From Dunaliella salina (lineage: Eukaryota; Chlorophyta; Chlorophyceae; Chlamydomonadales; Dunaliellaceae): a DNA stretch of 29,530 bases. This document shows positions 1,677-29,530 of the stretch, piece after piece (position 1 is the stretch's first letter; each line of letters starts with the position of its first letter). The stretch is taken from positions 196,802 to 226,331 of the forward strand of contig MU069764.1 in assembly GCA_002284615.2 (NCBI GenBank), given 5' to 3'. The notes under the pieces are model-generated. The model saw only the letters and a program-made list of their open reading frames with translations, was not told where the DNA came from and ran no database searches. Made by a program: the position numbers and the translations under genes.

Positions 1677-1790
1677 CTTGAGCGTCTTTGCGCTGTGCGG
1701 GAAATCCTTGAGCACAGCTTTGAAGTCAAACGCGCTCAGCACACAGAGGTCCAGATTTGACATGGAAACACAGTTTGCTGTGCGCTTGGC
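1677..1790 (-). CDS. Channel exon 16 (end of nucleotide-binding domain, helices B-C)
   Basis: The acceptor is gctattgcag| and the donor CTCAAG|gtgcgc, giving 38 codons in phase 0. It encodes AKRTANCVSMSNLDLCVLSA and then FDFKAVLKDFPHSAKTLK. Joined to exon 15, the cassette reads FGEIALFTEAKRTA, with the arginine that binds the cyclic phosphate. The D.C.L....F..VL.DFP pattern is the usual C-terminal helix region. The donor shows the protein continues; no later exon could be identified. Confidence 0.93.
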
Positions 1791-4700
1791 CTGCAATAGC
1801 ACAAAGAGCACGTGTACGCCGAGCGCATGTACGTCCAATTTTTTATATGAGCATGCAGTCTGCTGTGCGCTTGGCCTGCAATAGCACAAAGAGCACCTGT
1901 ACGTTCAATTTTTTCACAAGGACACGCAGTTTGCTGTGCACTTGGCCAGCAAGAATGCAAGGAATGCAGGTATCCTTAGGAAAGGAACAGGCTATAGAAA
2001 CACAATCACCCAGTTCCTAAATGCATCCAGCAGCACATGTGGTGGTCCAACTTGACACGGACAACAGTCCCTGTTGTACGATGGATTGGAGAGAGCCTTC
2101 CCCAAAATGCTCCTTGAATAATGCTTTATTGAGCAAAGCATTGGCCATACAAACAAGACGAATAGCCCACACTTCCACACACCTCTGAAAGCAGGGTCAT
2201 TACCCCGTAGTGCTGTCCGACTATCAGTAATCCCACATTTTCACAAATCACTGTCTGTAACTTTCAGCAATCCCACACTTTCACAAATCACTGTCTGTAA
2301 CTTTCAGCAATTCCACACTTTTGTACACACCTGCAAACGAGGCTACCCCACAAAGTGCTGTCTGCAACTGCCAGCAATCCCACACTGCAAAAAGCGCTGT
2401 CCAACTGTCGACGACCCCTCGCCATGATGCACCCCTGTAAACCACGCTACCCTGCGCAGTGCTGCCCGACCATCAGCAATCCCCAACTGTCAGCAGTTCT
2501 GAACTTCCACGCACCTCTGTAAACAAGGCAATCTCTCCAAAGTGCTGCCCAACTGTCAGTAATCCGAGCATGTGGTTGTGCCTGCCAATGACGGCCACAC
2601 TGCCCTTGCAGATGATGTACATCTCAAGGCCAAGGTCACCCGCCCTGAGGAGCAGCATAGGCGCATGGGGAGCACAATGACAAAATGGTGCTGCCTGAAA
2701 AAAGAGCATCCTCAGCATGTGGCTGTGCCAGCCACTGACAGCCCCACTGCCAATGCAAATGATGCACATCTCGAAGCCTCAGTCACCCGCCATGTGGAGC
2801 GGCAAAGGCGTACGAAAAGCACACTGACAAAATGGCGCATGGGATGCACATTGACGAACATGGTGCTGCCTGAAAAAAAAAGGAAATCGCACACATGGCT
2901 GTTCCTGCCAATCACGGCCAAACTGCCCTCACAGATGATGCACAACTCGAGGCCTCAGTCACCTGCCCTGGAGGACAGCGAAGGCGCATGAGAGCCACAT
3001 TTGCAGCAACTGGAAAGTTCTGAAGGCCTGGCTTGGCCTGAGAAGGGCTCCTTATTATTCCATCAAGCACATCAAAATTCGGCCTCCAGGTTGCACTATT
3101 TCCGTGTCGCTTGGCTTCAGAAAGTCTCGTTCCACCAAGCACGTCTCGTTCCACCAAGCACACCAAAATTTGGCCTCCAGGTTGCACTATTTCCGTGTTG
3201 CTTGAGAAAGCTCCGTCTCATTCCACCAAGCACGCGGAAGCACTATTTCCGTGTCGCTTGGCTTGAGAGAGCTCCATCTTGTTCCACCAAGCACGCGGAA
3301 ATTTGACCTCCAGGTCGTATTCTTCCGTGCGCAGGCGGGAAGCTCGTTTGCTTTTCCACATTTTCCTTCTATGATGTGCGGAACACAAGAATCAATGGCC
3401 TCATCGTTGTAGAATTCGAACATGAAAGCTTAAAACGCTAAGCAACAGCGTTGATGATGCTGTACACACATGTAAGTGTGTATGCATGCATGCATACACA
3501 TATGTATGTTTTCTGAACAACAGCTGGGCATCGAATTTTGATCTAATAATCCACAAACGCCTCAAAATTCCGCTATAAAGTGTACAATGAAAAGGTATTT
3601 GCACACAAATTCATTTCATCATCTATGCACAGTGCATCACAATCTCACAAAACCATCAACACACAGTGCAAAATTTTGCCACGTAGTGCACCATCTAGAG
3701 GTTTTGGCAACACAATCCGATCCTGATATCCATGCACAGTGGGAAGTTTTGCTGCCAAGTGCAATCAAAAATTTCGGGCATCCCAAGCCAGTGGGATCAT
3801 CCTGGAGTGAACCCTGATCCGATCAGGCCTATCGGGCGAAAATGCTTTTTTTTGTGCAGTCTATTGTTTCTCTGAGCAAAGCTAAATCCTCTATGTGCAG
3901 TCTTGTCTATTGTGCCTCTGGGCGAGTCTAAATCTTTTTGTGCAGTCTCGCCTCCTGTGTACCTGTGAGCGAGTAGTCCTCTGCCACAAGCAGTGGTAAA
4001 TCATCAAACCCATGTGAGGAAAACAATGCAGAATAAAACATCTGAGCACACCACTGCCAATGAGGGGTGAACCATCACACCCAGCACTTCTAGCACCAAG
4101 AGTTTCCGCGACTATCACAGCCACTTTTGCTCTTAATGCTCAACAGACTGCCTTGACATTAAAGGCAGGACGGAGCTCTCCTTCCTCCATATTTCAGATG
4201 TGTAGATTATAGGTACAGTCTATTATGGGTTGTAGGTATGGAGTGCAGGTTGAAGATATGGTCTACATGGTTATGGGCATATTACGTAAACTGTAGGTTT
4301 AGTCTGATAAGTTATAGTATGTAGATTAAACGCGACAAGACAGGCCCCAAAACGGCTTCTTTGGAATAAACACAATCATGTGCGCTGGAAGTAAAATTTC
4401 TTCAGAGAAAAGAGAACCACCTCTGATGTTGAACCATGTTGTACTGACCTGAAAATGGTCTCCTTGGGGATGAACATAATCATGCGCATGCGCAGCGACA
4501 GGTTCATGAGGAAAGCCTCTTCAAGGTCGAAAAAGAGGGGCACACGCTGCAGGTGCTTCCGATATGCATGGCCTGCAGTGGACAAGGAGATTGACATCGG
4601 AAATGGTGTTCTATTATACCAGCCAGACAGCCTGGAGATCGACAATGGTGATGGTGTCATGGTGTACAAGCCATGCAATCCAAACATATGAGCATGCAGG

Positions 4701-5383
4701 CCATGGGCGAAACAAGGCAGGAATGTGGTAGGTGCTTCCAATATGCATGGCCTGCAATGCGCAAGGAGATTGATACTGGTGGTGGTGTATTGTTGAACCA
4801 GCCAGGCAGCCTGGAGAGAGGCAATGGTGATGGTGTCATGGTGTACAAGCCATGCAATTCAAACATATGAGTAGGGTTGGCCAATTCTGTATAAGGTCTA
4901 AGACGTCGTATAATATACGGTACGTATAAGACGGCCCGTATAAGTGGGGGGACCTCCGTATCCGTACCCGTATAAGCGTCTAATACGGCAAATTCCGTAT
5001 TAGGCGTTTAGACGGGTATAAGCGTCTAATACGGCAAAATTCCGTATGTGCCTTAGAAAGGGACCCTTCGAAGTGACCCTTCGACAAAACATTGAGTGGC
5101 TGAAATTCGATACCCCCAAAAGCTTAACGAAGCTGTTCAATGATTGCATGAATTAAAATGCTTCGAAGTTTATAGGGCCAGGCTTCAGTTGCCCCATCAC
5201 GAAGGGGTGCTCAGGCAAGAGGTACTCAAGCAAGGGATGGTCGATCAGCACAGGGCACACCTACAGGGAACACAGCTGCACAAGATGCTGGCACAGGTAG
5301 TCCAGCAGGAGGAGGTGCAAGTGAGAGGGAGGGCTCTGCAGTGAGGAGCAGCACTGCAGNGGGCACTGCTGATGGGGCACCAC

Positions 5384-5414
<31 letters not shown>

Positions 5415-8400
5415 TCCTGCACGAGCATTAGCAGCAGCGGGACCAGCACCAGCACCAGCAGCAGCTGAGGAAGAGGCAGGCATGGCGATTGATGCAGAGG
5501 GAAGAAAGTGTGGGGGGGGAAGTTTGGGATGTGGGGAAAGGTGTGCAAGTAGTTGATGGGCTAGATGGGAGGAAGACAGAATTTTGGGATTGAGGGAGGC
5601 TGCTCTGGTCTTTCAAACTGAAGTACATTGACGTCTGTGAACCATGCCTGTGTGCATGGTGTGTTTGGAACGTTTGGGCTGCCCTAGCCTTGCAAGCTTT
5701 CATTTTTTGGTGGAACAGGATTGGGTAGGCATGCTCAGCTCTTTGAGAGCTGCAGAATGACCCCCCTTTGACTTAATCCTGAGAACATTTAAATTCTGAA
5801 TTGTACGGACTCTACGGATATACGGCCGTATTATACGGATATACACGTATTATACACGTATATGAAATCTCATGTACGGAACTGGCCAACCCTACATATG
5901 AGCATGCAGGCCATGGGCGAAACAAGGCAGGAATGTGGTAGGTGCTTCCAATATGCATGGCCTGCAGCGCGCAAGGAGATTGATACTGGTGGTGGTGTAT
6001 TGCTGAACCAGCCAGGCAGCCTGGAGAGAGGCAATGGTGATGGTGTTATGGTGTACAAGCCAGGCAATCCAAACATATGAGCATGCAGGCCATGGACGAA
6101 ACAAGGCAGGAATGTGGTAGGTGCTTCCGATATGCATGGCCTGCAGCGCGCAAGGAGATCGATACTGGTGGTGGTGTACTATTGTACCAGCCAGGCAGCC
6201 TGGAGAGAGGCAATGGTGATGGTTTCATGGTGTACAAGCCAGGCAGTCCAAACAAATAAGACACAGGCCATGACGATGAAAGGCAGGCATGTTGTAGGTG
6301 CTTTCAATATGCTGAGCCTGCAGGGCGCAAGGAGATTGCCAGTGGTGATCTGTGCACGAGGTTACAAGGTTACAAGGTTACAAGGCCTCCAGTTAAAACG
6401 ACTGACTGCTAGCCTGATGGCGCAAGGAGATTGCCAGTGGTGATCTATGTACAAGGCTACAAGGTTGCAAGGTTACAAGGCCTCCAGTCAAAATGACTGA
6501 CTGCTAGCCTGGTGCGCAAGGAGATTGCCAGCAGTGATCTGTGTACCAGGTTACCAGGTTACAAGGTTACAAGGTTACAAGGCCTCCAGTCAAAACGACT
6601 GACTGCTAGCCTGATGGCGCAAGGAGATTGCCAGCGGTGATCTGTGTACCAGCCAGGCAATCCAAACATGTGTGCACCAGCCGGGCAATCCAAAAATGTG
6701 TGTACGAGCCGGGCAACCCAAAAATTGGTGGAAGGCAATGTGTGCACCAGCCAGGCAGGCGTGTACCACAAGGCGAACCAGGCAGGCAACCAGGCAAACC
6801 AGCCAAGCGGACCAGCTAAAAGCAAAAGGCAAACCAGCCATGCAATCCAAAAAATTGGTGTGAGGCAGTGCGTGCACCAGCCAGGCAGACCAGCTAAAAG
6901 CAAAAGGCAAAGCAGCCATGCAATCCCAAAATTGGTGTGAGGCAGTGCGTGCACCAGCCAGGCAGACCAGCTAAAAGCAAAAGGCAAAGCAGCCATGCAA
7001 TCCAAAAAATTGGTGTGAGGCAGTGCGTGCACCAGCCAGGCAGACCAGCTAAAAGCAAGAGGCAAAGCAGCCATGCGATCCAAAAAATTGGTGTGAGGCA
7101 GTTCGTGCACCAGCCAGGCAGACCAGCTAAAAGCAAAAGGCAAACCAGCCATGCAATCCCAAAATTGGTGGAAGCCAACGTGTGCACCAAGCAAAAGGCA
7201 ATCCAACCAGGCAAATCCAAACAGATGAGCATGCAGGCCATGCACAACACGAGGCAGGCAAGTTGCAGGTGCTTCCAGTATGCAGAGCCCGCATTGCACA
7301 AGGAGATTGACACTGGTGATGTGTACCAGCCAGGGAATGCAGACGTATGAGTAGGGTTGGCCAGTTCTGTATGTCAACACCGTACACCTGTACATCTAGT
7401 GCTGAAAATTCCATACGCCTGCCGTATGATGCATATACATGGGTATAAAAAGAGGGAATTGGCCAGCCTTGGCCCACCTTAAATGATAATGAGCATGCAG
7501 GCCATGAACGATGCATGGCAGGTACGAGCAACAGGAACGGACGTACCTTCTTGGGCTGCAATGACTGTCACCATAGCTGCTGAAACGAGACGCAAGTCTT
7601 AAGAGTGAAGGCGTTTTTTTTTTTAATCACAGCTTGCATCAAAATTAGGCAAGGAATTGAAGCCCTGCTTTGAAGGAGCAATTGTGGTGGGCTGCATTGC
7701 GGTGCTCTGCATAATCCATTGCATTCTGGTGTTCAGGCACTCTTGTGCTCTGTTGCTCATGCGCTCTAGCTTTCATCAACAAATGTTAAGTTGATGAAAA
7801 AATTTGACTCCAGCGCTCTCCTGACATGCATGACCAGGCGCTCACCTGCGACTCCTTCCAAGGGATCCAAGCATTCTTCTCAAATCCTCATACAAAGAGA
7901 TCCTCAAACCCTAAAGGAGATCCAAGTGTTTCCCTGACATGCATGACCAGGCGACCTGTGACTTCCGCGAAGAGATGCAAGCGCTCTCTTCAAATCCCCA
8001 AAAAAGTCCTCTGGAGGAGATCCATGTATCACAGTGTTCCCCTCACATGCACAACCGCAGGCGCTCACCTGTCGGTCCTTTGAATAGATCCAGTGTTCTT
8101 CTCAAATTCTCAAGGAGCCCCTCAGATCATCAAGGAAATCCAAGCGTTCCCCTGACACGTGAGACCAGGCGCTCACCTGTGACTTCCGCACAGACTTTCT
8201 CGGGGAGTCGATGCGAGATCTAACCTGAACATGTATTTGATCTGGCCCTAAAATGTGCCACTGGGCGCTCACCTGTGAGTGGGTTGGGGAGCTCGTTCAA
8301 AAAGGCAATGCCCTCGCCTGCCGGGTGGCTGTAGTACGTGATATAGTTGAAACCCGCAAACACGCACATTACCAATCCTAGCATGCATGACCAGGCGCTC

Positions 8401-9032: not shown

Positions 9033-9128
<96 letters not shown>

Positions 9129-15712: not shown

Positions 15713-15765
<53 letters not shown>

Positions 15766-21700: not shown

Positions 21701-24700
21701 AACCCAGCAACCAACCAACCAACATGCGCCATCCATCCTTGGGAGGCAACAATCCAAACCCAACCAACACGTGCCAACCCAGCAACAAACCAACCAACAT
21801 GCACCATCCCTCCTTGGGAGGCAACGATCCAAATCCAACCAACACACGCCAACCCAGCAACCAACCAACTAACACACACCATCCCTTCTTGGGAGGCAAC
21901 AATCCAACCAACACGCGCCAACCCAGCAACAAACAAACCAACACGCGCTATCCCTTCTTGGGAGGCTACAGGAAAGCAGCTGCTCAAGGCCTTTCTTTTG
22001 CCATTTCTCATTTTCTTTCAGTCTTCTGCCATTCTCCATTTTCTCAAAGCCTTTCTTTTGCCATCCCTTCTTGGGAGGCATCAGGAAAGCAGCTGCTGAA
22101 GGCCTCTTCTCAGGGAAGCACTAGCCAGTAGCTTCCGCCAGGCACTACCGTGCTCAGGCTTATCCCCAGGCAGGCACAAGTCAGTAGGATCATGTAAAAA
22201 GGGTTGAGGAGTTGGCCAAAGAGGCTCCAAAGAGGGCTAAAGGGGCCCCACAGAGGCTCATTGACCCTCTTTTGCCGTATGCTCAACCCTCATTACCCAC
22301 CCCTACAAGTCAAGCATGGGCGTCTGGCTTTATCTTGATCAAGAAATACCCTCAAGCAAGCACTAGTTGGCCACTACTGGCTGGCAATACCGTGCTCGAA
22401 ACCTATCCCTGGGCCTGTCCTGCTTCGCACAGCTTGGGCACTACTGGTTGGCGCGACCATGCTCAAGACCTACCCCATGGCAAGCACCTGTAAGGAACTT
22501 CCATCACATACCACCTTGCCCAAGGCCTATTCAGTCAACAACTCTTGGTGGTATGGCCGACACACGTGCCCCTCATGATTCAATTGTCGTGAGCCTTACT
22601 ATCAACACCCCATGGCAAGCGCGAGTGAGGCACTACCCTCATGTATTACCTTGCTCAAGACCTACACCACAGCAGCACTGCAGGTCTAAACAAAAGGCAT
22701 GCAAGCATCGAGCTTCGTGACGTAGCTCAAGCATACTCTGGATTATGAATGTTGAGCAGCAGCATGTCTTGGCGGCAAAGGAACAGGCGGCACACATTCT
22801 AGCTTGCTGGCTGAATGCAGATACTGAAAATCACCACAGTCAAGAGGTTTTCTTGGCGTTCAAAACGAGTGATACGCATCCAAGCATGCTGCCTAAGGGG
22901 CGGCAAGATGTCATCAGTGAAGGGCTTCACAAATTCAGCTGGCTCTTGTCATTGCTAGGACACCTGGAATTTGTCTGAAGCGTTGCCATTTTTTTTATTG
23001 GCGGTATACGAACTCTTAATTGTCAGAAGTTGTGGATGCAGGCTTGTACTTTCTCGTGTGTGTTGGCTGGACAGGCTGGACCCAGCTTGGCTGGGGGCCC
23101 AAACAATTCACGCAGCTTCCGCTTTTTGATTTCAAATGCTTGCCGCTGACAAATGCTTGGAGATAACAATCATTCTCTGCACTATCCGCTGGTGGTCTTG
23201 GATTGCAATTTGGTGTAGTCTCATCCCAATAATCTCTGCTCTCCACCCCTCTACTGGAAGCCCCATCCACTCACAGGTCAATCCAGAACCAGAACTTCAT
23301 GTATTCCAGGGCGATCCTGTCGGTGTCTTTCACCAGGTGGCCTGTTTTGTCCACATACCTGAGCAGCAAAGCAAGGATGGTGCAGATAATGAACAAGAAA
23401 AAAGGGTGGAAGGGATGGAAAATGGGGGATCAAAAAGAAGCAGTAGAGAAGGTGCAGACAATTCCAATGCTGCCTCACACACCACCACAAGGAGTCCACA
23501 TGCCATATAACAGATTCATGGATGAGGGCATACAGCAGAGAGTATGGAAGATGGCTGCGTATGGAGGAGATCATGGAACGTGGCTGTGCACAAGTCAGTC
23601 CATTTCATTCTTTTTGAGAGCATGGGAAATGCCTTAAGAATAAAGATGATGGCATGGTATTTGGCTGTGTGTGGATGAGAGCGTGGAAGGGGGTCGGTCA
23701 CACTTTATTCCAGACCCACAGTACAACCCCTGTTCGATCATTTGATGCACTTCTTCCAGACCTCCAGGACAACCCCTACACAGATCATGATGCGCATCCT
23801 GCAGCAACAACAAGGCTCCCTCATCCTTTCTAGGTACTGTGCTTGTGCAGCAGCTGTCGCTTCACCAAAGTTGGCTGAAACGCCAGTCCAACAATCGCGC
23901 CCACTGCCACTTACGCAGTGCGGAAGTTGGTCAAAATGTCTGCCCCGAAGATCACATCCACCGCTACGCTCACTGCCTCAATGGCTGGGTCCCCCGGCAA
24001 GCCAAAGCTGACCTCCATGGGCACTGACCAAGCGTTGTACAGCACGACAGCCATGACAATGATGTCCCATCTGCATGTGCAAAAAGTGGGAAGTGGCACA
24101 CATTGAGCATGAGCACTTGAGCTGACCTCCATGGGGACTGACCAAGCGGTGTACAGCACAACAATGATGTCCCATCTGCATGTGCAGGAAGTGTGGGGGG
24201 ACACACATTGAGCATGAGCATTTGTGCAAATATGGGGTGACCAAATGATGGTGGGCCCATTTCTGACATCAACGAGACCTGCCTGCCACAAGATAGCTAC
24301 ATCCAGGATGTCCCACACAATTTAGTTCATGGATGGATGAATGGAAAATGGGCAAGCCCAGGAAATGTCATGTGACAAGAAAGGGGATGAATGCACATGC
24401 CAGAACCGGCTGCATGCGTTGAGGAGGGCTCCATGGTTAGCTTCAACAGCTAGCATGCCTTTAGGAGGCTCCAGGGTTAGCTTCAACAGCCAGCATCATG
24501 TGAAAGAGTTGCATTCAACTGACTCATTGGACCTCATGCTTGGGATGCGCTTCTCTTATCGACGAGACCTGTCTACCGTAAGATAGTCGCGACCAGGATG
24601 CCCCACGACTTTTTTCATGGATGGATGGATGGCAAGAGGGCAAGTCCAGGAACTGTCATGATGGAAAGGGGGCATGCCAGGGAATGTCACGAGGAAATGT

Positions 24701-27700
24701 CGTCAAATGCCACGAGGAATTGTCGTCAAATGTCAAGAGGAATATCACGAGGAAATATCATGAGGAATGTCACGAGGAATGTCATGAGGAAACGTCATGA
24801 GGAATGCCACGAGGAAAGAGATGTCACGAGGAATGTCACAAGGAATTGTCGTCAAATGTCAAGAGGAATATCACGAGGAAAGAGATGTCATGAGGAATGT
24901 CACGAGGAAAGAGATGTCATGAGGAATGTCACACGAGGAAACGTCGTGTGAAAAGAAAGGGCATGACTGCGAGATAGCACTCCCAGAAAAGGTAATATGT
25001 CTCGTCCGAACACGCCAGCGCCAATAATGAGAGCAGATACTGGATGCACTCGGAGAGATAATTTGTCTTTACTGGCAGAAATGTGAGCAAAGCCAAATCC
25101 TGCCGCAAGCATCAAGGCAGGCTCCATGCACTGCACCCAGTGTACAGCCAGCACCATATGAACGAGTCGCATTTTATTGGCCATGATATCATGCAGTAGG
25201 TACGCGTTTGGGGGAGGTGAATAGGGTGTGGATGTGTGGAAGCAGATTGGGTGCAGTTGCGTCTAATTAGTACTACGAGGTCTCTCCCACATAGAGTTCC
25301 AAATTATCGCAAGGCAGATTTGTTTGTGGGTCCTGAATGGACCTCATGCTCGGGGCGCACTAAGGAGGGCATTGTTGAGACTTGTGTGCCGGACGATGGA
25401 AACGACCAGGATGCCCCACGACATGCATGCTGGGCGAACAAACTCATTGCCAAGAATTGCCGAGAAAAAAAATGATCATACCCGCTAGGGACAGCTGCAG
25501 GTATCAAGTAAAGGACCCATAAGCAGCGCTCACAACTTGTGTAACGTGCATAAGTTGCGATTCATTGTTTCTATGAACTCCATCCATGGGGCTTGAATGG
25601 CAGCCCTGCTTATTCTCCTGTCCTAAAACCACATCAACTCCTCTATTTGTGTCTGCGATCGATCGTTTTCATGGACCTTATCATGGGGCTTGAATGGAAG
25701 CTCTTCTCTTGTCCTGAAGCCACACCCACTCCTTGGGTAATTTGCCTTCCTGGATTTGGAAGGTGTGCTTCAGGCTGACCTACAACACCTCATCATTGAA
25801 AGTGACAAGAAGCGCTTAGATCGATTGTAAACAGAAAATTGGTCCGTCTCCTTTGCCTTCGATTGGTGCACTCCAGCTTCAGCTTCACCAGCGACACCTT
25901 TTCCCATACAGCAACGAAATAGTGCAAGTAAGCATGGAGGTGGTGAGCGACCAAACAGTGTGAGTAAGCATGAGGGCATCATCCATGCATGATTCCTGCT
26001 GTAATGATTTGAAATTTGACTCATTCAAGGTTATAACATCTAACTCTTAGTGTATACACCCATGCGCAGACCACTGCCCCCCGGAAGGCTACAGGGTTTT
26101 GATCCTAGCATAGTAGATACACCCATGGCATGATTCCTGCTGAAAGGCAGAGATGAAAAGTGAACTCACGCGCGACGCCCCGGGGTGTGTGGGTTAAAAA
26201 CAGGGAGCACATTGTTGAGCCAATTCATGGCACCCATGAAGCGATCCCAGTAGCTGCCTTTCACGACCCGCAGCTGCGCACGGCGCGCGTAGTGTGTGGC
26301 CTTGCCTGCGCACGCATGGACGACGTAAGGCACAGTGTTCTGCTCATGAAGCGGTCTTAGTAGCTCGTTTCATGACCCGCAGCTGTGCACAGTGTGCGCA
26401 GCGTGCGGGCTTGCCTGTGCATACACGGACAGAGTAATGCGCGCTGTGCAGCCCAGCTCAAGATGCCCATGTGGCAATCCCAGTGAACACTTCAACGAGT
26501 GCAGCTGTGCATGGGGAGAGGCTTGCCAGTAAGTAATGCCGAGATAAGGATAGCTAGGGCTTCCCAGGCATTGCAACGAGTTGAAAGTGGTTTGAACAAA
26601 GGTGTTTTTACCATGGTTTCCAGTGGAGAGCCTTGTGTGCTCTCTCATCAGTCTAGCTGTGCTGTCTTGCCTGCATGCTCATGAATCTGGTGTGCTGTCT
26701 TGCCTGACGCTCAGAGGCAAAGTAGGACTTTTTTCTTCTTTTCCGTCCATCTCATGAGGCCCCTTCCGTGTGAATCACACCTCATGTGAAAGTTGGCGAA
26801 GTTTAGGCTGCAATGAACACTCTGCCACCAGCGCTGGCTCAAAGCGCTAATGCAGAATTCTCATTCCGGCACATGTCCTCCAAAACACACATCACTGCTC
26901 ACATGCATTGCATGCAGCATACTTGCTAAGTGCCCATATCTATGCCTTAAGATCCACTCCTCTTCCCACAGAACTGCGCATGCACTGTTCAGACCCTAGC
27001 CACTACATCCTTCGCGCAGAAGTCTCTCAGCACAAACGTGGACTCTTCCTTTCTTGCACCAAAACGAGTGAATCTGTCACGACCTGCACTCTGGGTTTCA
27101 CTCGCAAGTGAAGGAAGAAAGGGTGCAAGTTTATGGGTCTCGCGCTGTTAGCGGGCTTGGCGGAACCTGAGGTGGCTTCCCTTACGTTCTCTGAGTCCGT
27201 CTGACTTCTGTGTGCGACCATGATGGGGCACTTCTGGTGAGAACCAAGTGGCCTGACGCCCAAGGAAATCCTGCCCACCCACTCGCCCAGCCGCCCCCTT
27301 CCTTGCCCCACCCGCTTGTGGCCATGAAACATCTCGGTGAGTGGAGGGGCATGTGCTTCTTGGGCTGGGGATCTATGGTACCTGTTTGTGCTGCAGCGCT
27401 GCTACCTTCTGTCCTCTCCAAACCCAAGTGTCCGAGAAAAGCCTGCCTCCTAACCTGCTTGTGATGCGGCTCCTGATCTTGAGGCTCAGCAGGAGAAGCT
27501 GTGGGTGCCCCTACCTTCTTGAGGAAAAGGAGGCCTGTATCCGCACCTGCTTGCGCTGCAGGTCCACGCTCCCAGGCACAACAGGAAGAGCTGTGTTGCC
27601 TGTACCTTCTTGGCGGATCAGGTGGGCCTGCTGCAGAACTGCTCGTGCTCTGGGACCAGACTTACAAATGTTGGAGAAAAAGCTGAATCTGTGCCTAGGT

Positions 27701-29530
27701 ATGCATGCCCATACCTACTTGGAGGAGAAGATTGGCCTGCATCCCCACCTGCTTGCGCTGCAGGTCCACACTCCCAGGCACTATAGGAAAAACTCTGTCG
27801 CCCCCACTTTCTTGGCAATCAGGTGGGCCTGCTTCAAAACTGCTCGTGCTTCAGGCCCAGACTTACAAACGTCGGAGAAGGCGCTGTATGCATGTGCCCC
27901 TACCTACTTGAAGGAGGAGATTGGCCTGCATCTGCACCTGGTTGGGCTGCGCCTCCAGGCCTAGGTGCCTGGTGGCATTGGTGAAGAAGCTGGGTGTTTA
28001 CCACCTGCCACTCAGAGGAAAACGGGTTTTGGACCCACCTGATTGTCCTGTCTTCCAGAATTTAGAGAAGCTGTTCTGCTGAGCCACTGTGGCATGTGAG
28101 AATACGCGGTCAAAGTCTTGCCCCGCCAGCCATTCGCTAACATTGCCTGTGAGGTGTTCACAAAGGTTGCCTTTGTGTGAGATGCTCACAAAGGCGTGCC
28201 AGTGAGATGACGACTAAAATGCCGCGCCAGCCATTCGCTGACATTGCCTGGGAGACATGCACATAGGTGTGCCTTGTGTGAGACAATCGTGTCTCAGAGG
28301 TGCGAGATGTTCACAAAGGTGTGTCTGTGAGATGATCACGAAGGCGCCCTGCCAGCCATTCGCTGACGTCGCCTAAGCGATGCTCACATGGGTGTGCTTT
28401 CGTGTGAGATGTTCACAAAGGTTGCCTTTGTGTGAAATGCTCACAAAGGTGTGCCTGTGCGATGACCGCAAAATTGCCCCGCCAGCCATTCACTAACATT
28501 GCCTGTGAGGTGTTCACACAGGTGTTTTAAGGCTTAAAACAGGTAGCATGCGCTCACATTTCCTATCTGTGCAGATTTACAACAGTATACAGGGTGCAGA
28601 TCCAAGAGTCATAAAAAGAAACAGATTCAGATTCAGGTATAGGTCCAGAGTCAGATACAGGCACAGATGTTAATCCAGATTCTGATACAGCTCCAGGTAC
28701 TAATCCAAATCCAGATAGAGTTCAATTCAAATTCAGATTCAAGGATGTTTGCAAGTGACATTGCCTGTGAGATGTTCACAAAGGTGCTTCAAGGCGGCAG
28801 ACAGGGTGGACTCCCTCACATTGCCTGGAGGATGCTTGCAGGTGTCAAAGCTGCAAAAGCAGGTTTCAAACCTGCTAAGATCCGAACTCGCAATGACCAG
28901 GGAAAACTGGTCATTGCTTGGAGGGCGTCCACAGGTGCTGAGACTGAAAAAACAAAGCCCAAACTTTCAGTGACCAATGGGAACTTGATTGATCTACCGA
29001 CCCTGCTAACAAACAGGGAGCAGGGGTAGGGAGGAGCTTCCTTGCATGCAGTGACGATCATCGTGAACAGTGGAGTACAGCAGGCACATGCTGTAGCTCT
29101 GGAGAGCTTTGCATGAGGGCCCCTGCTAGCTTGCTACTTCAGAATTCCTTCCTTCCTGTACACGGCCTCTGTCTGGCCAGCATAGACATTCTTTTCTTTT
29201 TTTCCAGGAGGGCAGGTGTGGAAAGCAGTCCCAGGGAGACAAAGCAGCTCTCCCTCCCTCTCTGATGTGCCAAAAGAGCTTCACTAAGGCATGCAGGCAC
29301 CAACTGTAGCGCAGGAGAGCAGGTAGCATGGAAAGTGTGGAAATCATTCAAAGGGAGAGGAAGCGGTCCTCTGATGAGCCAACCAGAGCTTCGCTAGGGC
29401 ATGCAGGCGCGGACGCACCTCCTGCTTTTGGGGCAGGCTCTTCCTGCGATGGCCGGAAGTTCTTGCGCCTGTGGATCACAGACAACCCGTGGCTGGTCAC
29501 AGCGAGTGCCGGGTTGAACCCTCCGGAGGC
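1677..29530 (-). CDS. Voltage-sensor cation channel with cyclic-nucleotide-binding domain, 16-exon gene (partial at both ends)
   Basis: This is a plasma-membrane type six-transmembrane cation channel of the EAG/HCN/CNG superfamily, gated by voltage and/or cyclic nucleotides. Sixteen exons on the minus strand join with agreeing phase at every intron (about 1821 nt, 607 codons). In order they give an N-terminal cytosolic region, S1 (WDIIVMAVVLYNAW), S2 (ending ADILTNFRTAY), S3 (FWFWIDLFATIPYEEI), an S4 with arginine at every third position (LRTPRLLRLGR), S5 (LLAHWLACIW), a pore with GED, S6, a C-linker, and a nucleotide-binding domain with FGEIALF and RTAN. All introns are GT-AG except one GC-AG. 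Start and stop are outside or unseen. No frameshift or stop is needed, so the gene looks functional. Ion selectivity and the physiological ligand are inference. No homology search could be run. Confidence 0.9.
1791..1975 (-). repeat. Array of exon 16 5'-edge copies
   Basis: The real acceptor border at 1790 is repeated at about 1875 and 1946. Each copy has a gctattgcag-like acceptor followed by the first bases of exon 16 (GCCAAGCGCACAGC), then diverges. The duplicated unit therefore begins in the intron and ends inside the exon. Confidence 0.8.
2180..2514 (-). repeat. Array of exon 15 3'-edge copies and 47-bp repeats
   Basis: Copies around 2427-2485 and 2322-2380 match the 3' end of exon 15 plus its donor (real edge at 2506-2560). 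They are followed by near-identical units of about 47 bp at 2225-2320 (cacaaatcactgtctgtaac). Between 1976 and 2179 nothing else was recognised. Confidence 0.75.
2515..2644 (-). CDS. Channel exon 15 (nucleotide-binding domain core)
   Basis: The acceptor is gctcctcag| and the donor ACAGAG|gtgcgt, giving 43 full codons. It encodes AGDLGLEMYIICKGSVAVIG and, further on, GLLTVGQHFGEIALFTE. GD.G.EMY.I..G.V.V and the FGE phosphate-binding cassette are intact, including the glutamate that contacts the cyclic-nucleotide ribose. Partial copies lie on both sides. Confidence 0.95.
2700..3000 (-). pseudogene. Two upstream pseudo-exon copies of exon 15
   Basis: Copies at about 2711-2820 and 2886-2998 match the acceptor side and first 25 codons of exon 15. 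They still read CIICIGSGAVSG and CIICEGSLAVIG. Both carry TGA at the codon after GD, where the real exon has CTT. The distal copy keeps a good acceptor (cctccag|). They are degraded exon duplicates and not usable alternative exons. Confidence 0.82.
3040..3320. repeat. Short tandem array (gttccaccaagcacg units)
   Basis: Units of about 50-60 bp with ttccaccaagcac, tttccgtgtcgcttg and ggcctccaggttgcac recur about four times. The array lies in intron 14 and shows no clear likeness to an exon edge. Confidence 0.7.
3321..4448. other. Remainder of intron 14
   Basis: About 1.1 kb without a recognisable exon. It holds a palindromic gcatgcatgcatac tract near 3480, cacagtgca-type short repeats at 3620-3740, three loose units with gtgcagtct at 3855-3960, and ggttgtaggt-like repeats at 4200-4330. 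None is long enough to define a named element. Confidence 0.5.
4449..4572 (-). CDS. Channel exon 14 (start of nucleotide-binding domain)
   Basis: The acceptor is cactgcag| and the donor TTTTCAG|gtcagt. It encodes HAYRKHLQRVPLFFDLEEAF, then LMNLSLRMRMIMFIPKETIF. L.RVP.F..L...FL..L...L....F.P.E.I is the standard entry into a CNBD (helix A and first beta strands). It follows a 3.8-kb intron made of copies of its own 5' edge, other arrays and hAT elements. Confidence 0.93.
4573..6340 (-). repeat. 179-bp array of exon 14 5'-edge copies, interrupted by a hAT element
   Basis: The exon 14 acceptor border at 4572 recurs at 4751, 5961, 6140 and about 6317. Each copy keeps ttgca(g) plus GCCATGCATAT.GGAAGCACC of the exon and then diverges. 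Spacing is 179, 1210, 179 and 177. The 1210 interval equals 179 plus the 1031 bp of inserted element and target duplication. Confidence 0.92.
4872..5894. mobile_element. hAT-type non-autonomous DNA transposon (1023 bp)
   Basis: The termini are perfect inverted repeats TAGGGTTGGCCA / TGGCCAACCCTA, flanked by an exact 8-bp duplication CATATGAG (4864-4871 and 5895-5902). Subterminal regions are rich in CGTATA/TATACG motifs, as expected for transposase-binding repeats. Terminal TAGGG plus an 8-bp duplication is diagnostic of the hAT superfamily. The interior has a CAG run near 5385-5416 and one N, with no intact transposase frame. Confidence 0.9.
6340..6660. repeat. Array of about 110-bp units with ggttacaagg sub-repeats
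   Basis: Three units share gcgcaaggagattgccag, a variable number of ggttacaa repeats, and aaaacgactgactgctagcc. They begin with the caaggagattg stretch of the preceding 179-bp unit, so they look like a secondary amplification of that array. Confidence 0.8.
6640..7200. repeat. Array of about 75-bp units (accagccaggcagaccagct)
   Basis: About five near-identical units with caaaattggtgtgaggcag, cgtgcaccagccaggcag and aaaagcaaaaggcaaa, with shorter related units at 6640-6830. The 278-residue minus-strand frame across this stretch is repeat-driven. A further 179-bp-type unit follows at about 7210-7340. Confidence 0.85.
7352..7485. mobile_element. Degenerate hAT-type MITE
   Basis: The left end TAGGGTTGGCCAGTTCTGTA closely matches the element at 4872 and is preceded by CGTATGAG at the same array position. 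The right end (attggccagccttggccc) is only partly conserved and its duplication is blurred. The interior has the same CGTA/TACG-rich character. Confidence 0.65.
7486..7810. other. Unassigned intron 13 sequence
   Basis: One further partial array unit (gagcatgcaggccatg at 7490), a T tract at 7614-7624, and loosely repeated tgctctgcat/ttgctcatgcgctc words. No exon or element was recognised. Confidence 0.4.
7811..8350 (-). repeat. Array of exon 13 3'-edge copies with donors
   Basis: The real exon/donor border at 8403 recurs at about 7846, 7955, 8069, 8177 and 8273. Each copy keeps the gtgagcgcctgg donor flank or a close variant. The 8273 copy is longest and still reads NYITYYSHPAGEGIAFLNEL before its own gtgagc donor. 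It lacks the exon 5' half and any clear acceptor. Confidence 0.88.
8403..8572 (-). CDS. Channel exon 13 (C-linker)
   Basis: The acceptor is atgcag| and the donor TCACCG|gtgagc, giving 56 codons plus partial codons. It includes LDVLSYIGLNKENRRRVEEY, then FNYITHYSHP and FLNELPKPLFEEVT. The L....R.RV..Y..Y and LNELP.PL..EV motifs are the C-linker helices that couple the nucleotide-binding domain to the S6 gate. It carries copied edges on both sides: five of its 5' edge upstream and five of its 3' edge downstream. Confidence 0.93.
8590..9012 (-). repeat. Array of exon 13 5'-edge copies
   Basis: The real border at 8572 recurs at about 8658, 8728, 8823, 8910 and 8984. Each copy has tttgtgcag or a variant followed by ATTGAGGCAGGGCACAACAC, the first bases of exon 13. 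Unit lengths are about 70-95 bp. Confidence 0.88.
9034..9126. repeat. (CA)n microsatellite, (GT)n on the gene strand, touching the exon 12 donor
   Basis: About 46 CA units. On the coding strand the run begins with the GT of the exon 12 5' splice site. The threonine/histidine and valine/cysteine frames across it are artefacts. Confidence 0.97.
9127..9189 (-). CDS. Channel exon 12 (end of S6)
   Basis: A 63-nt exon between acceptor gattgcag| and donor CCACAG|gtgtgtg. After the completed codon it encodes AVVSQMAVLVASMDLVGMRH, matching the inner half of S6 and the gate of CNBD channels (.A.V.G.M..LV.S.D). The donor is the first unit of a long (GT)n tract. Three copies of its 5' edge lie upstream. 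Confidence 0.9.
9190..9655 (-). repeat. Array of exon 12 5'-edge copies, period about 137 bp
   Basis: The acceptor border at 9189 recurs at about 9321, 9461 and 9600 (132, 140 and 139 bp apart). Each copy keeps a tgtgcctYctg-type tract, tttgcag or ttgcag-like acceptor and a recognisable TGCTG.AGTCAG exon start. Confidence 0.85.
9657..9835. repeat. Left part of a split array (cagcagcaaggtcgttgc units)
   Basis: Units of about 110 bp with cagctcttgcgcagcagcaa, attgtgcaccaccacatccc and caatgcaagccatgta. The same units resume at 10590-10860, so the array is interrupted. Confidence 0.8.
9836..10592. mobile_element. Candidate insertion with long imperfect terminal inverted repeats
   Basis: The left end (ttggcagaggggggcggcag) and the reverse complement of the right end (gtggcaaaggggggcaacgg) align over about 33 bp. 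The segment splits a tandem array. The flanks show only a short gccatg/ggcatg likeness, so no superfamily is assigned. Inside are an inverted repeat at 10445-10526 and paired words around 10270-10400. No coding frame of note. Confidence 0.5.
10445..10526. repeat. Internal inverted repeat (hairpin)
   Basis: ggccacaagttccacctttc pairs with gaaaggtgaaatttgtggcc around a loop of about 35 bases, giving imperfect arms of about 25 bp. Confidence 0.75.
10590..10870. repeat. Right part of the split cagcagcaagg array
   Basis: Three units of about 105 bp match the units at 9657-9835. They are nearly identical to one another, suggesting a recent expansion. Confidence 0.82.
10905..11012. repeat. Trinucleotide microsatellite (att/gtt/atc)
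   Basis: An (att)n run, then (gtt)n, then (att)n and (atc)n, with no clear flanking structure. Confidence 0.95.
11220..11955. repeat. Array of 15-20-bp units (agcagagtgcaactcc)
   Basis: Over thirty diverged short units (ccagcagagtgcaactcc and relatives), with a longer 55-60-bp period at 11620-11800 (ttgaagtgc..cccagtgcagtgca). On the gene strand the unit (ctgctggagttgcactc) resembles the exon 11 3' edge ctgctgggtggagccg, so it may be another exon-edge amplification. That link is weak. Confidence 0.8.
12097..12194 (-). CDS. Channel exon 11 (pore loop and S6)
   Basis: The acceptor is aactgcag| and the donor TACAG|gtaaat. It encodes SFLLLLGEDLPAFNNVERVY, then MICILLGGAVLY. The N-N-V-E-R-V-Y stretch between filter and S6 is typical of EAG-type channels. 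The filter position reads LLGEDLP instead of TVGYGD. Animal CNG channels also lack GYG and have a Gly-Glu there, so a non-selective cation pore is a reasonable inference, though not shown. Confidence 0.9.
12195..12760. other. Intron 10, distal part
   Basis: Contains short gcaagtggag/gcacgtggagtg repeats at 12330-12440. At 12710 there is a TAGGGTTGGGTAAAGAGGG word like the termini of the MITEs at 15007 and 22185, but without a recognisable second end. No exon seen. Confidence 0.45.
12770..13350. repeat. Array with about 70-bp units and a roughly 300-bp higher-order copy
   Basis: Units carry ctgtgcttgcaagtcacg, gcatgtgcatgcc and caatttggcgc. The block ggtgcagctatgctcacaag / cgaattgaccccactgtgct appears at 12781-12855 and again at 13066-13140. 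Confidence 0.85.
13604..13680. repeat. Dispersed repeat, copy B (inverted)
   Basis: The reverse complement of this stretch matches copy A: ttcccttaatgcacgcggcc, then ttggcttgcgtagacttttc. It lies 60 bp from the exon 10 donor. Confidence 0.65.
13738..13852 (-). CDS. Channel exon 10 (turret and start of pore helix)
   Basis: The acceptor is ggccgcag|. It encodes YMLFKFTTFVGFEEWSISME, then GTLDEDNNVS and VYIASYYQ. VYIAS(F/Y)Y is the usual lead-in to the pore helix, where most relatives have Tyr-Trp rather than Tyr-Gln. The donor appears to be a GC site, CAG|gcaagc. It is supported because only this join keeps phase 0 with exon 11. N-V-S is a second possible glycosylation site. Confidence 0.88.
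13925..14100. other. AT-rich island, possible MITE
   Basis: Multiple taatattac/taatgtaatat words, flanked by gacatgccaatgtaattt on the left and aagtaatacgacatgtc on the right, which are partly complementary. The base composition is unlike its surroundings. No target duplication could be fixed. Confidence 0.4.
14101..14574. other. Unassigned intron 9 sequence
   Basis: Two loose copies of about 170-180 bp share cagcatt(c)aaac/aacttgaaatgttgactga..gagcatggagca and ccttggaaa words (14160-14375 and 14385-14570). No exon-like frame with splice sites. Confidence 0.4.
14575..14870. repeat. Array of 16-17-bp units (tttttgccatgcat)
   Basis: About 17 units with a secondary period of about 60 bp (gcattcatttttgccatgca, tttttgccttgcatgttgcc). 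All frames give histidine/cysteine-rich or lysine/methionine-rich artefacts. Confidence 0.95.
15007..15127. mobile_element. Small hAT-like MITE, second copy of the 22185 family
   Basis: It shares the interior ggcttcaaagatggctgaag / ttgaccctcttttgcc / gctcaaccctc with the element at 22185. The ends are caggttgcgtaaagaggttt and ctttcccaacccca. The flanks tcctgaat and atcctagt/tcctagtg match only partly. Confidence 0.72.
15202..15264. repeat. Perfect-stem foldback hairpin
   Basis: gtagcagggagtggat and atccactccctgctac are exact complements. They continue into aacacattttg / caaaatgtgtt around a short loop, giving arms of about 29 bp. It lies just 3' of the exon 9 donor on the gene strand. Confidence 0.88.
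15296..15467 (-). CDS. Channel exon 9 (long extracellular turret between S5 and pore)
   Basis: The candidate acceptor is actgcaag| and the donor GAAAG|gtaggt, giving 56 codons plus partial codons. The peptide includes RWLPEQKIEDMYVKAYSYV, RFNVQNITEADAGATGNP and SIEVAQGLSALE. It is non-repetitive, open and phase-compatible with exons 8 and 10. Its position would make an extended extracellular S5-pore turret with an N-I-T glycosylation sequon. The acceptor is weak. Since exon 8 could also join exon 10 directly through its other donor, this may be an optional exon. Confidence 0.72.
15468..15880. repeat. Intron 8 distal part with (CA)n microsatellite
   Basis: A (CG)n/(CA)n run at 15697-15761. 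Around 15535-15605 there is a diverged copy of the segment at 15130-15200 (gatggcttg..gcatg.tgatgcactgg words). No further exon recognised. Confidence 0.75.
15890..17043 (-). repeat. Array of exon 8 3'-edge copies with donors, about 110-bp units, about ten copies
   Basis: Units recur at roughly 110-bp steps from the real edge (17044) down to about 15978. Each keeps the codons for LAHWLA.(V/I)W or decayed versions and the donor context CTGGTGTGTG, followed by the same intron start (cagccacatgc..tatgcatgtatctgcc on the plus strand). One breakpoint is in the exon and one in the intron. Confidence 0.93.
17044..17147 (-). CDS. Channel exon 8 (S4-S5 linker and S5)
   Basis: The acceptor is attgcgcag|. 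It encodes IFRTLDRLKAANAVRVASLM, then GAMILLAHWLACIW. The HWLAC motif in S5 is typical of EAG/HCN/plant Shaker-type channels. The donor is ambiguous within CTGGTGTGTG. Ending after TGGT (17044) fits the two-base start of exon 9; ending after CTG (17046) would fit a direct join to exon 10 that skips exon 9. About ten copies of its 3' edge and donor fill the downstream intron. Confidence 0.9.
17390..19525. repeat. Large 49-bp satellite-like array (spans the N gap)
   Basis: More than 30 visible units of gtgagtgtgatgcatgacaa / agtcctgtgcaaagtggtgg / tgacctaat, extending into the gap on both sides. On the gene strand each unit holds tttgcacaggactttgtc, which resembles the exon 8 acceptor border (ttgcgcag|GATTTTCCGC), so an exon-edge origin is possible. 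Between 17148 and 17389 nothing was recognised. Confidence 0.95.
18913..19392. other. Assembly gap of 480 Ns inside the 49-bp array
   Basis: A run of N flanked on both sides by the same 49-bp repeat. The true copy number is unknown. Frames reported across it are meaningless. Confidence 1.
19695..19882. mobile_element. hAT-type MITE (188 bp)
   Basis: The termini CAGGGTTGGGTCATACG / CGTATGACCCATCCCTG are inverted repeats with two mismatches. The flanks TGGATAGG (19687-19694) and CGGATAGG (19883-19890) form an 8-bp duplication with one mismatch. The interior is rich in acgcgtata/cacgtata motifs. It sits at the edge of the ggataggtaagg array. Confidence 0.88.
19883..20205. repeat. 22-bp array (ggataggtaaggccttggaat)
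   Basis: About 14 units, alternating ggaatggaaaggtat and ggaatggataggtat variants, with one N at 19979. Each unit holds a consensus-like 5' splice site (ag|gtaag) on the strand opposite the gene. Confidence 0.95.
20560..20673 (-). CDS. Channel exon 7 (S3 end and S4 voltage sensor)
   Basis: The acceptor is ttgcagctgcag-like (ctgcag|) and the donor TTGGGCAG|gtgcgt. It encodes FATIPYEEI, matching the STIPFD position at the end of S3, and then the S4 helix ALGFLRTPRLLRLGR with four arginines three residues apart. This is the clearest evidence that the protein senses voltage. Five truncated copies of its 5' half lie in the upstream intron. Confidence 0.94.
20674..21440 (-). repeat. Array of exon 7 5'-edge copies, period about 133 bp
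   Basis: The acceptor border at 20673 recurs at 20806, 20939, 21074, about 21191 and about 21423. The nearest copies keep the frame FATIPSEEIVFAAAGSLSG, about 60 nt of exon, and then pass straight back into intron sequence. Shorter gagggagtgccgcaagg units fill 21230-21370. Confidence 0.93.
21640..22095. repeat. Array of about 70-bp units (caaccaaccaacacgcgcc / ttcttgggaggc)
   Basis: Five to six units with cccttcttgggaggcaacaa and caacccagcaaccaaccaa, then two diverged units at 21955-22090 carrying aggaaagcagctgct. Open frames on both strands are repeat-driven. It lies in intron 6. Confidence 0.9.
22185..22305. mobile_element. hAT-type MITE (121 bp)
   Basis: The ends taggatcatgtaaaaagggt and the reverse complement taggggtgggtaatgagggt align as imperfect inverted repeats. 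The flanks CAAGTCAG (22177-22184) and CAAGTCAA (22306-22313) form an 8-bp duplication with one mismatch. The interior matches the copy at 15007. Confidence 0.87.
22320..23274. other. Remainder of intron 6
   Basis: At 22340-22680 there are loose units of about 95 bp (caagcac, ctactggctggcaat, ctcaagacctacccc words), also seen at 22125-22170. From 22740 to 23274 nothing repeated or exon-like was recognised. Confidence 0.5.
23275..23358 (-). CDS. Channel exon 6 (S2-S3 loop and start of S3)
   Basis: The acceptor is gctgctcag| and the donor GACCT|gtgagt. It completes RTAY with exon 5 and encodes VDKTGHLVKDTDRIALEYM, then KFWFWIDL. The pattern (Y)V.....G.LV.D...IA..YLK.WF.ID is the standard S2-S3 loop of this superfamily. 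Phase agrees on both sides. The intron before it is one of the shorter ones (556 nt). Confidence 0.93.
23359..23914. other. Intron 5
   Basis: Mostly unique sequence, with a loose repeat of gtatggaagatggctgcgta-like words at 23535-23695 and ttccagacc..aggacaacccct at 23710-23780. No additional exon seen. Confidence 0.5.
23915..24070 (-). CDS. Channel exon 5 (S1 and S2)
   Basis: The acceptor is catgcag| and the donor ACTGC|gtaagt (51 codons plus partial codons). S1 is WDIIVMAVVLYNAWSVPMEV. S2 is AVSVAVDVIFGADILTNFRT. The VDVIF..DI..NFRT signature, with its acidic residue in S2, is characteristic of EAG/HCN/CNG-type channels, where it forms part of the charge-transfer centre. This exon is among the most secure in the window. 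Confidence 0.93.
24071..24240 (-). pseudogene. Pseudo-exon copy of exon 5 5' edge
   Basis: A clean tandem duplicate about 105 bp upstream (border at 24175 against 24070). It has a good catgcag-type acceptor (cctgcacatgcag|) and still reads WDIIVVLYTAWSVPMEVS, with an in-frame loss of three codons in S1. It then returns to intron sequence. It is the least decayed pseudo-exon in the window. Confidence 0.88.
24240..25190. repeat. Intron 4 arrays: 15-18-bp gaggaatgtcac units and a dispersed 55-bp word
   Basis: 24650-24950 is built of gaggaatgtcacgaggaaa units. The block gacgagacctg..agatag..ccaggatg.cccac occurs at 24270-24320 and 24560-24610, and in part at 25400-25430. On the gene strand it begins TGGGACATCCTGG, faintly like the S1 start of exon 5. 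24960-25190 is non-repetitive, but I found no phase-compatible exon in it. Confidence 0.7.
25191..26169. other. Remainder of intron 4
   Basis: Two units of about 90-100 bp (ggggcttgaatgg..ctcctgtcctaaaaccacat / cttgtcctgaagccacacc) at 25585-25735. Paired words gcatgattcctgctg at 25985 and 26130, and agtaagcatg at 25925 and 25970. No exon was needed here by phase and none was recognised. Confidence 0.5.
26170..26273 (-). CDS. Channel exon 4 (pre-S1 segment)
   Basis: The acceptor is gtgcgcag| and the donor CGCGC|gtgagt, giving 34 codons plus two bases. The peptide includes GSYWDRFMGAMNWLNNVLPV and ends FNPHTPGRR. Spliced to exon 5 it reads FNPHTPGRRAWDII. This resembles the short basic stretch with a His-Pro-like motif that leads into the S1 Trp-Asp of EAG-type channels. 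Two copies of its acceptor edge lie upstream at 26382 and 26504. Confidence 0.75.
26274..26520 (-). repeat. Exon 4 5'-edge copies
   Basis: The acceptor border at 26273 recurs at 26382 and 26504 (109 and 122 bp apart). The copies begin gcacag|CTGCGGGTCATGAAACGA and gcacag|CTGCACTCGTTGAAGTG, against CTGCGGGTCGTGAAAGGC in the exon. Confidence 0.82.
26521..27460. other. Unassigned part of intron 3
   Basis: About 0.9 kb of mostly unique sequence with a few word repeats (gtgctgtcttgcctg at 26660 and 26690). No exon, element or array recognised. Confidence 0.4.
27470..27907 (-). repeat. Array of exon 3 3'-edge copies
   Basis: Copies at about 27715-27775 and 27508-27566 repeat the exon 3 3' end (GATGCAGGCCAATCTTCTCC and a diverged form) with the donor gtaggtatg or gtaggggc. 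The rest of the roughly 200-bp unit includes gcagttttgaagcaggccca. The 207-residue plus-strand frame here is a repeat artefact. Confidence 0.82.
27908..27960 (-). CDS. Channel exon 3 (short N-terminal exon)
   Basis: A 53-nt exon between acceptor cacctag| and donor CTTCAA|gtaggt. It encodes LEAQPNQVQMQANLLLQ, a glutamine-rich, probably helical segment. It enters in phase 1 from exon 2 and leaves in phase 0, matching exon 4. The intron before it is only about 78 nt, far shorter than any other. Downstream copies of its 3' edge, with the gtaggt donor, support the boundary. Confidence 0.55.
28039..28146 (-). CDS. Channel exon 2 (N-terminal cytosolic region)
   Basis: The acceptor is cctcacag| and the donor TCAG|gtgggt. 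It encodes 35 full codons, including NVSEWLAGQDFDRVFSHATV and FSKFWKTGQSG. The balanced composition and open frame contrast with the repeats around it. Truncated copies of its acceptor and 5' edge fill the upstream intron, the same pattern seen at the domain-bearing exons, which supports it as a real exon. The function of this segment is not recognised. Confidence 0.65.
28147..28840 (-). repeat. Array of exon 2 5'-edge copies
   Basis: The acceptor border at 28146 recurs near 28247, 28372, 28502, 28764 and 28824. Each copy has cacctcacag| or a variant followed by GCAATGTCAGCGAATGGCTG or a shortened form. 28600-28745 is a separate patch of 6-12-bp cagattcagattcagg repeats. Confidence 0.87.
28841..29117. 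other. Unassigned intron 1 sequence
   Basis: Contains a short inverted pair, aatgaccagggaaaactggtcatt, near 28891 and no exon-like segment. Confidence 0.45.
29118..29205. repeat. Dispersed repeat, copy C
   Basis: cctgctagcttgctact, then cacggcctctgtctggccag and catagacattcttttctttt match copy A. It lies about 210 bp from the exon 1 donor. Confidence 0.6.
29206..29410. repeat. Two-unit tandem repeat beside exon 1
   Basis: Two units of about 100-115 bp share agggagacaaagc / agggagaggaagc, gagcttc.cta.ggcatgcagg and gtgtggaaa. The unit ends just before the exon 1 donor, so here the copies appear to be intron sequence only. Confidence 0.7.
29419..29530 (-). CDS. Channel exon 1 seen here (N-terminal cytosolic region, runs off right edge)
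   Basis: The frame is open from the window edge for 37 codons plus one base, then meets the donor G|gtgcgt. The peptide is hydrophilic (it includes IHRRKNFRPSQEEPAPKAG) and has no recognised domain. Its end phase (1) fits the two-base start of the next exon. It is assigned to the channel by strand, phase and position only. It may begin further upstream, or at the internal acceptor-like ccacag within it. Confidence 0.55.

Follow-up and report, generated by a model that had tools for sequence, protein, structure and literature searches.

Exon edges, together with their splice sites, have been copied into the neighbouring introns of an ion-channel gene on the minus strand of the window analysed here (the whole stretch of 29,530 nucleotides, G000:C329:196802-226331; the assembly searched comprises 285 Mb in 1,403 contigs, and its matches to the chlorophyll a/b-binding family indicate a photosynthetic eukaryote). 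Of 28 distinct queries taken from the coding letters of exon ends, 11 had same-strand copies well above shuffled controls, and these 11 come from 10 of the 15 exons. In all 11 cases the best copy lay in the intron next to that exon, on the upstream side if the query was an acceptor end and on the downstream side if it was a donor end.

The gene has 15 exons between positions 1677 and 29530, and its 5' end lies beyond the window edge. Of these exons, twelve were located from translation and splice signals, and three more were added towards the 5' end; exon lengths are 57-172 nt, introns reach several kb, and intron totals 26,093 bp in the window. The joined exons read through 1,761 nt (587 codons) with no stop, whereas the other two frames contain 23 and 19; this open frame is partly a matter of construction because some borders (the e17 donor, both e28 ends and the GC donor at e13) were picked to preserve it. 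Pfam searches returned Ion_trans (1.6e-23) and cNMP_binding (2.1e-14), as in a channel with a cyclic-nucleotide-binding domain, and a 441-aa draft of the protein matched KCNH channels (KCNH1, 5.6e-29), with the best stretch from S1 to S6. Potassium channels carry a GYG or GFG filter and cyclic-nucleotide-gated channels GE; set against these motifs, the predicted selectivity-filter region LLLLGEDLPAF (12097-12194 and 13738-13852, minus strand), which depends on the inferred GC-AG intron at e13, would be nearer the GE of the cyclic-nucleotide-gated channels than the GYG or GFG of potassium channels. Four consecutive introns, after e26, e24, e23 and e20 (17147-26305, minus strand), are in phase 2 as judged from the exon joins. 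The short exons among long introns would be compatible with exon definition, without proving it. The exons and their arrays are as follows.

29419-29530, minus strand: exon e29, the window's first exon, continuing past the edge; donor without same-strand copies
28227-28785, minus strand: array of copies of the e28b acceptor and exon 5' end; five copies, four reaching 4 to 21 nt into exon letters
28039-28146, minus strand: exon e28b, with copies on the acceptor side (score 31, shuffles 19)
27904-27960, minus strand: exon e28, 57 nt, both splice sites chosen by frame (score 36, shuffles 17)
27505-27768, minus strand: two copies of the e28 body and donor, the aligned part without acceptor (alignment)
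26368-26455, minus strand: copy of the e26 acceptor and 47 nt of exon (alignment)
26170-26305, minus strand: exon e26 (translation and splice signals)
24131-24227, minus strand: copy of the e24 acceptor and 54 nt of exon (alignment)
23915-24070, minus strand: exon e24 (translation and splice signals)
23275-23358, minus strand: exon e23, no copies (shuffle-controlled alignment)
20749-21482, minus strand: five copies of the e20 acceptor region and 18-66 nt of exon, in 133-bp units (TRF and alignment)
20560-20673, minus strand: exon e20 (translation and splice signals)
17044-17147, minus strand: exon e17, donor chosen by frame (translation and splice signals)
15926-16966, minus strand: nine copies of the e17 3' end and donor, in units of about 112 bp (TRF and alignment)
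15296-15467, minus strand: exon e15, no copies (shuffle-controlled alignment)
13738-13852, minus strand: exon e13, GC donor, no copies (shuffle-controlled alignment)
12097-12194, minus strand: exon e12, no copies (shuffle-controlled alignment)
9698-10875, minus strand: unproven candidate exon beginning near 10875, followed along the gene by three repeats
8403-8539, minus strand: exon e08 (translation and splice signals)
7819-8342, minus strand: four copies of the e08 3' end, three across the donor (alignment)
4702-7324, minus strand: five copies of the e04 acceptor region and 34-51 nt of exon, with other sequence interspersed (alignment)
4449-4572, minus strand: exon e04 (translation and splice signals)
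2708-3013, minus strand: two copies on the acceptor side of e02 (alignment)
2515-2644, minus strand: exon e02, with copies on both sides (translation and splice signals, alignment)
2171-2452, minus strand: two copies on the donor side of e02 (alignment)
1856-1971, minus strand: two copies on the acceptor side of e01 (alignment)
1677-1790, minus strand: exon e01 (translation and splice signals)

Other repeated sequence was observed in the same window. The e04 array is interrupted by an insertion of about 1 kb (4864-5902). Its terminal inverted repeats are 20 bp long and the 8-bp sequence CATATGAG flanks it as a direct repeat, a structure such as hAT-like elements would leave. An array of units of about 49 bp occupies 17406-19512 (31 copies by TRF up to an N run at 18913-19392, resuming beyond it) and contains no known exon edge. 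A short motif of about ATGCACGCGGCCTCTGGCCTGCATAGACTTTTC, in either orientation, was seen by eye at 1618-1660, 13595-13665 and 29150-29200; a similar motif also stands just past an exon (L049) of a TCP-1 gene elsewhere in the assembly, so it looks dispersed, unlike the border arrays.

Each exon-end query comprised up to 60 nt of coding sequence and was aligned to the whole window with the exon masked. The first set covered 24 ends of 12 exons with 40 dinucleotide shuffles per end, and the second covered five ends of three exons (e28b, e28, e29) with 40 plain shuffles; the 57-nt e28 supplied one query for two ends, hence 28 distinct queries in total. Nine first-set ends scored 25-42 on the gene strand (the acceptors of e26, e24, e20, e04, e02 and e01 and the donors of e17, e08 and e02), and the shuffles never rose above 21. 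The second set added the e28b acceptor (31, shuffle maximum 19) and e28 (36, shuffle maximum 17). None of the 11 positive queries had a minus-strand score above its shuffles. The donors of e26, e24, e20, e01 and e28b, the acceptors of e17 and e08 and both ends of e23, e15, e13 and e12 fell below threshold; the e29 donor scored 15 on the gene strand against a shuffle maximum of 18 (19 on the minus strand), and the e04 donor was borderline, at 19 against a shuffle maximum of 20, with its copy on the expected side. Five of the 15 exons were without copies at threshold.

These results uphold the proposal of an earlier, sequence-only reading that duplications which broke once in the exon and once in the intron occurred at many separate borders, each array being specific to its own exon. 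The alignments of the positive queries scored well above their shuffles and not at chance level. Its count of at least eleven of sixteen exons stands only in part: ten of fifteen were recovered, which we take to be its exons 2, 3, 4, 5, 7, 8, 13, 14, 15 and 16. Its exon 12 would be the candidate near 10875 with the three downstream repeats, which is unproven because e12 joins e08 in frame without it; if the candidate is omitted, the linker is about 30 residues shorter than usual.

Individual copies were listed, without shuffles, where an alignment scored at least 22 and covered at least 15 exon nt in the exon's own intron. By this rule 31 copies were found at nine borders. All but one of them extend across the splice site, and in 25 of these 30 the AG or GT is intact (acceptors 12/16, donors 13/14). 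The exon part of a copy ranges from 17 to 127 nt and its identity to the exon from 0.63 to 0.97; old and recent duplications therefore coexist. A whole exon with both splice sites, as tandem exon duplication would leave, was found in none of the 31 copies, and the fullest copy, one of e02, holds 127 of that exon's 130 nt and has only the donor, at an identity of 0.63. A whole-exon duplication was considered for e28 and rejected, the aligned part of both copies being without the acceptor. The best copy of the e28b acceptor aligned to 28450-28502 of the window. The 3' end of e17 faces nine near-copies, eight of them with GT, within about 1.1 kb. The side on which copies lie follows from geometry, without selection, because a breakpoint in the exon puts the extra half-exon on that side only. 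Together the 31 copies span 2,837 bp, or 11% of the intron total of 26,093 bp, a sum that leaves out the arrays of e28b, e28 and the candidate exon; this does not support the earlier suggestion that tandem border units produced the roughly 26 kb of intron.

Other loci of the assembly were then compared. Matches to PF00118 comprised 12 exon loci on three contigs. On C445, three adjacent loci were joined into a TCP-1 gene of 10.3 kb, whose exon ends are tblastn ends and hence approximate; five of its 12 ends scored above the maximum of 100 shuffles, and all five best hits were on the right side. The 3' end of exon A scored 26 against 17, with eight copies, all in the next (downstream) intron, and the 5' end of exon E 25 against 17, with five copies, four in the preceding intron and one out of place; the remaining ends were marginal (B 5', 18 against 16; B 3', 18 against 17; F 3', 23 against 22). 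Copies were present for 28 of 84 intron 60-mers of this gene. The C417 and C656 loci were compared with 30 plain shuffles per end, a weak control, and an end was called clear at a score of 20 or more. On C417 one of 10 ends was clear (the L049 3' end, 21 against 15), three more, with scores of 13-16, stood 1-2 points above their shuffles (one of the three on the wrong side), and 19 of 142 flank 60-mers had copies. On C656 none of 10 ends was clear, one end passing by a point (13 against 12) and one minus-strand score reaching 19 against 14, and copies were found for 1 of 131 flank 60-mers. The channel-related hits L013 and L017 gave 0/4 ends, and one 2-kb kinesin stretch on C699 gave 0/6 ends, with copies for 4 of its 24 intron 60-mers. 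Strong signals thus came from two gene regions only, the channel and TCP-1, and the idea that the phenomenon was limited to one gene has to be given up, the unrelated TCP-1 gene on C445 showing the same arrays. Genes whose introns hold many local copies also had border copies, and those whose introns hold few had hardly any. Exon-blind duplication predicts such a link, which was seen here in a handful of genes, too few for a law.

The pattern is quite probably explained by local tandem duplication that is blind to exons and is tolerated because the intact exon retains its own splice sites, with introns growing and acquiring half-exon decoys. Segments ranging from tens of bp to a few hundred would be duplicated often, by slippage or unequal exchange, and would enlarge introns regardless of exons. 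A segment covering one splice site would leave an intact exon and an extra half-exon, either an acceptor with an exon 5' end upstream or an exon 3' end with a donor downstream, and the mRNA would stay unchanged while the spliceosome uses the site next to the intact exon body. Splice sites are paired across a short exon under exon definition, as described in the part of PMC3488318 drawn on here. Such pairing would favour the proximal site, and a half-exon would presumably be ignored because it has only one splice site. Duplications of this kind would then be close to neutral and could persist, drift and sometimes expand within the intron; their direction and timing are read from similarity and are accordingly tentative. 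The absence of whole-exon copies (0/31) suits such a tolerance filter, though many units are too short to span an exon. It is also conceivable, if rather unlikely, that exon-crossing duplication is a standing process throughout the genome in which a splice site or exon end may pass to a neighbouring copy, the arrays forming a reservoir that rewrites exon ends and splice sites over time.

A survey of intron sequence speaks for exon-blind duplication. Same-strand copies scoring 25 or more were present for 119 of 248 intron 60-mers (116 of the 119 within 3 kb) and minus-strand copies for 2 of 248, the exon mask in this survey covering twelve exons only. Exon ends (11/28, 39%) were no different from intron 60-mers (48%; Fisher p 0.43), and TRF reported 74 rows in the window with periods of tens to a few hundred bp. 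Six random 10-kb stretches with at least 40 usable windows gave 27/537 against 120/268 for the window, a contrast that is only indicative, the stretches not being known to be genic; the control drew 20 stretches, of which 10 were all N (L019-L023, L026-L029, L033) and four were excluded (1/15, 13/13, 2/2 and 0/29).

If duplication were instead targeted to splice junctions, for example through transcription-coupled or R-loop-coupled breaks, exon borders would be the engine of intron growth. The many borders involved in one gene speak for this, but local copies are not denser near borders: they were found for 20 of 55 intron 60-mers within 250 bp of a border and for 99 of 193 beyond (p 0.07, in the opposite direction), and the listed copies make up only the 11% of intron length given above. 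The claim that border crossing is the mode of intron growth is likewise not borne out by these counts. Further evidence comes from seven arrays in which mean copy-to-exon and copy-to-copy identities were compared. Copies on average resembled the exon more than one another in e08 (0.75 against 0.65), the e02 acceptor array (0.76 against 0.68) and e01 (0.80 against 0.69), and barely so in e20 (0.83 against 0.81); these four of seven show what repeated seeding from the border would give, although an exon that evolves slowly will seem to lie at the centre of whatever copies drift around it. Copies were closer to each other than to the exon in e17 (0.71 to the exon against 0.77), e04 (0.70 against 0.85) and e28 (0.69 against 0.77), and three of the four e04 copies compared were 0.93-0.97 alike mutually and 0.68-0.71 alike to the exon. 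Some arrays may thus fit several separate border duplications, with the same caution about a slow exon, and others would fit seeding followed by expansion inside the intron. Full independence of the units is accordingly not supported, the e17, e04 and e28 copies being mutually closer than to their exons. On this evidence, targeting of splice junctions seems quite unlikely.

Splice-site retention bears on whether the half-exon copies have a function, either in providing alternative ends for exons or as splicing decoys that regulate the channel. The AG or GT kept in 25 of 30 border-crossing copies would favour function, as would the donors, where the GT bases were kept in 27/28 cases against 30/42 for the next three intron bases (p 0.01); against the last five exon bases (60/70) the difference had p 0.17. 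Acceptor dinucleotide bases, by contrast, were no better kept than the three bases before them in the same copies (28/32 against 46/48), so that there is no sign of selection on acceptor dinucleotides in the copies. The donor figure leans towards leaving room for selection and is not taken as proof because copies in an array share descent, so that it overstates the number of independent cases. None of the 31 copies holds an exon with both splice sites, and the same pattern recurs in the unrelated TCP-1 gene; we therefore consider a function for the copies very unlikely.

Ordinary satellites, or an assembly artefact, that merely touch exons are a highly improbable source, even in a window this rich in tandem repeats (74 TRF rows) and with the N run at 18913-19392 inside one array, for the copies hold coding letters 3-37% different from the exon, unlike a mis-assembled duplicate, and the DNA of the two arrays searched in the assembly (e17 and e20) matched its own locus only, in a search that skips very common words. 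The occurrence of the same units at unrelated loci, which the sequence-only reading had named as counter-evidence, was therefore not seen for these two arrays, and neither behaves as an introner or dispersed satellite; the window segment 1677-3000 had a single hit elsewhere, covering 72 query bases, on C605.

In the portion of PMC4974935 drawn on here, a potato gene gained a new intron through a tandem duplication that spanned an intron-exon boundary, a documented route of intron gain. That the arrays are remains of such births, the introns having arisen by tandem genomic duplication of exon sequence, is nevertheless hardly credible here, with 30 of 31 copies carrying an exon edge and adjoining intron, so that the intron was already present, and five of 15 exons without copies at threshold; the link to intron gain is thus replaced by the lengthening of existing introns. 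Duplication of the direct, adjacent type that breaks within the exon was found for 11 of 28 queries, in the own adjacent intron and on the same strand, and in this the channel gene is like the ATP2A1, fission yeast and potato RdRp cases as that portion of PMC4974935 presents them. The potato duplication, as here, also spans a boundary between exon and intron that was there beforehand, and takes over the splice signals of that boundary (PMC4974935, same portion). In those cases, so far as that account goes, one duplication makes a new intron, whereas here many duplications enlarge existing introns and the spliced product would stay the same. In Drosophila, novel intron positions are reported to arise through intron sliding or tandem duplication (PMC2891723); there too tandem duplication would change intron borders, apparently yielding new positions rather than half-exon arrays in long introns.

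Exon-blind duplication can also be set beside systems of repeated sequence that it resembles in part. Intronic minisatellites consist of tandem units of tens to hundreds of bp; the unit size is alike, and here the end unit of an array is part of a coding exon with a splice site. Tandem exon duplication, as in mutually exclusive exons, repeats an exon in direct order beside its source; the order and position are the same here, but none of the 31 copies is complete. Introner elements change introns genome-wide through repeats that resemble one another across genes, whereas the best copy of each exon end here lies in its own intron, and the two arrays searched match their own locus. A literature search whose reach excluded most subscription papers found no description of half-exon arrays as a mode of intron growth. 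The process is a known one, and what is new in the finding lies more in its density and visible coding tags than in its mechanism.

How introns lengthen without transposons is poorly resolved. The coding part of a unit serves as a tag of the origin of an intron segment, so that growth by tandem duplication can be traced for each exon in turn, and the e17 edge among its nine near-copies offers a natural experiment in splice-site choice. Should the process act genome-wide, it would yield predictions, open to a check against RNA data, about how exons are defined and how splice sites turn over.
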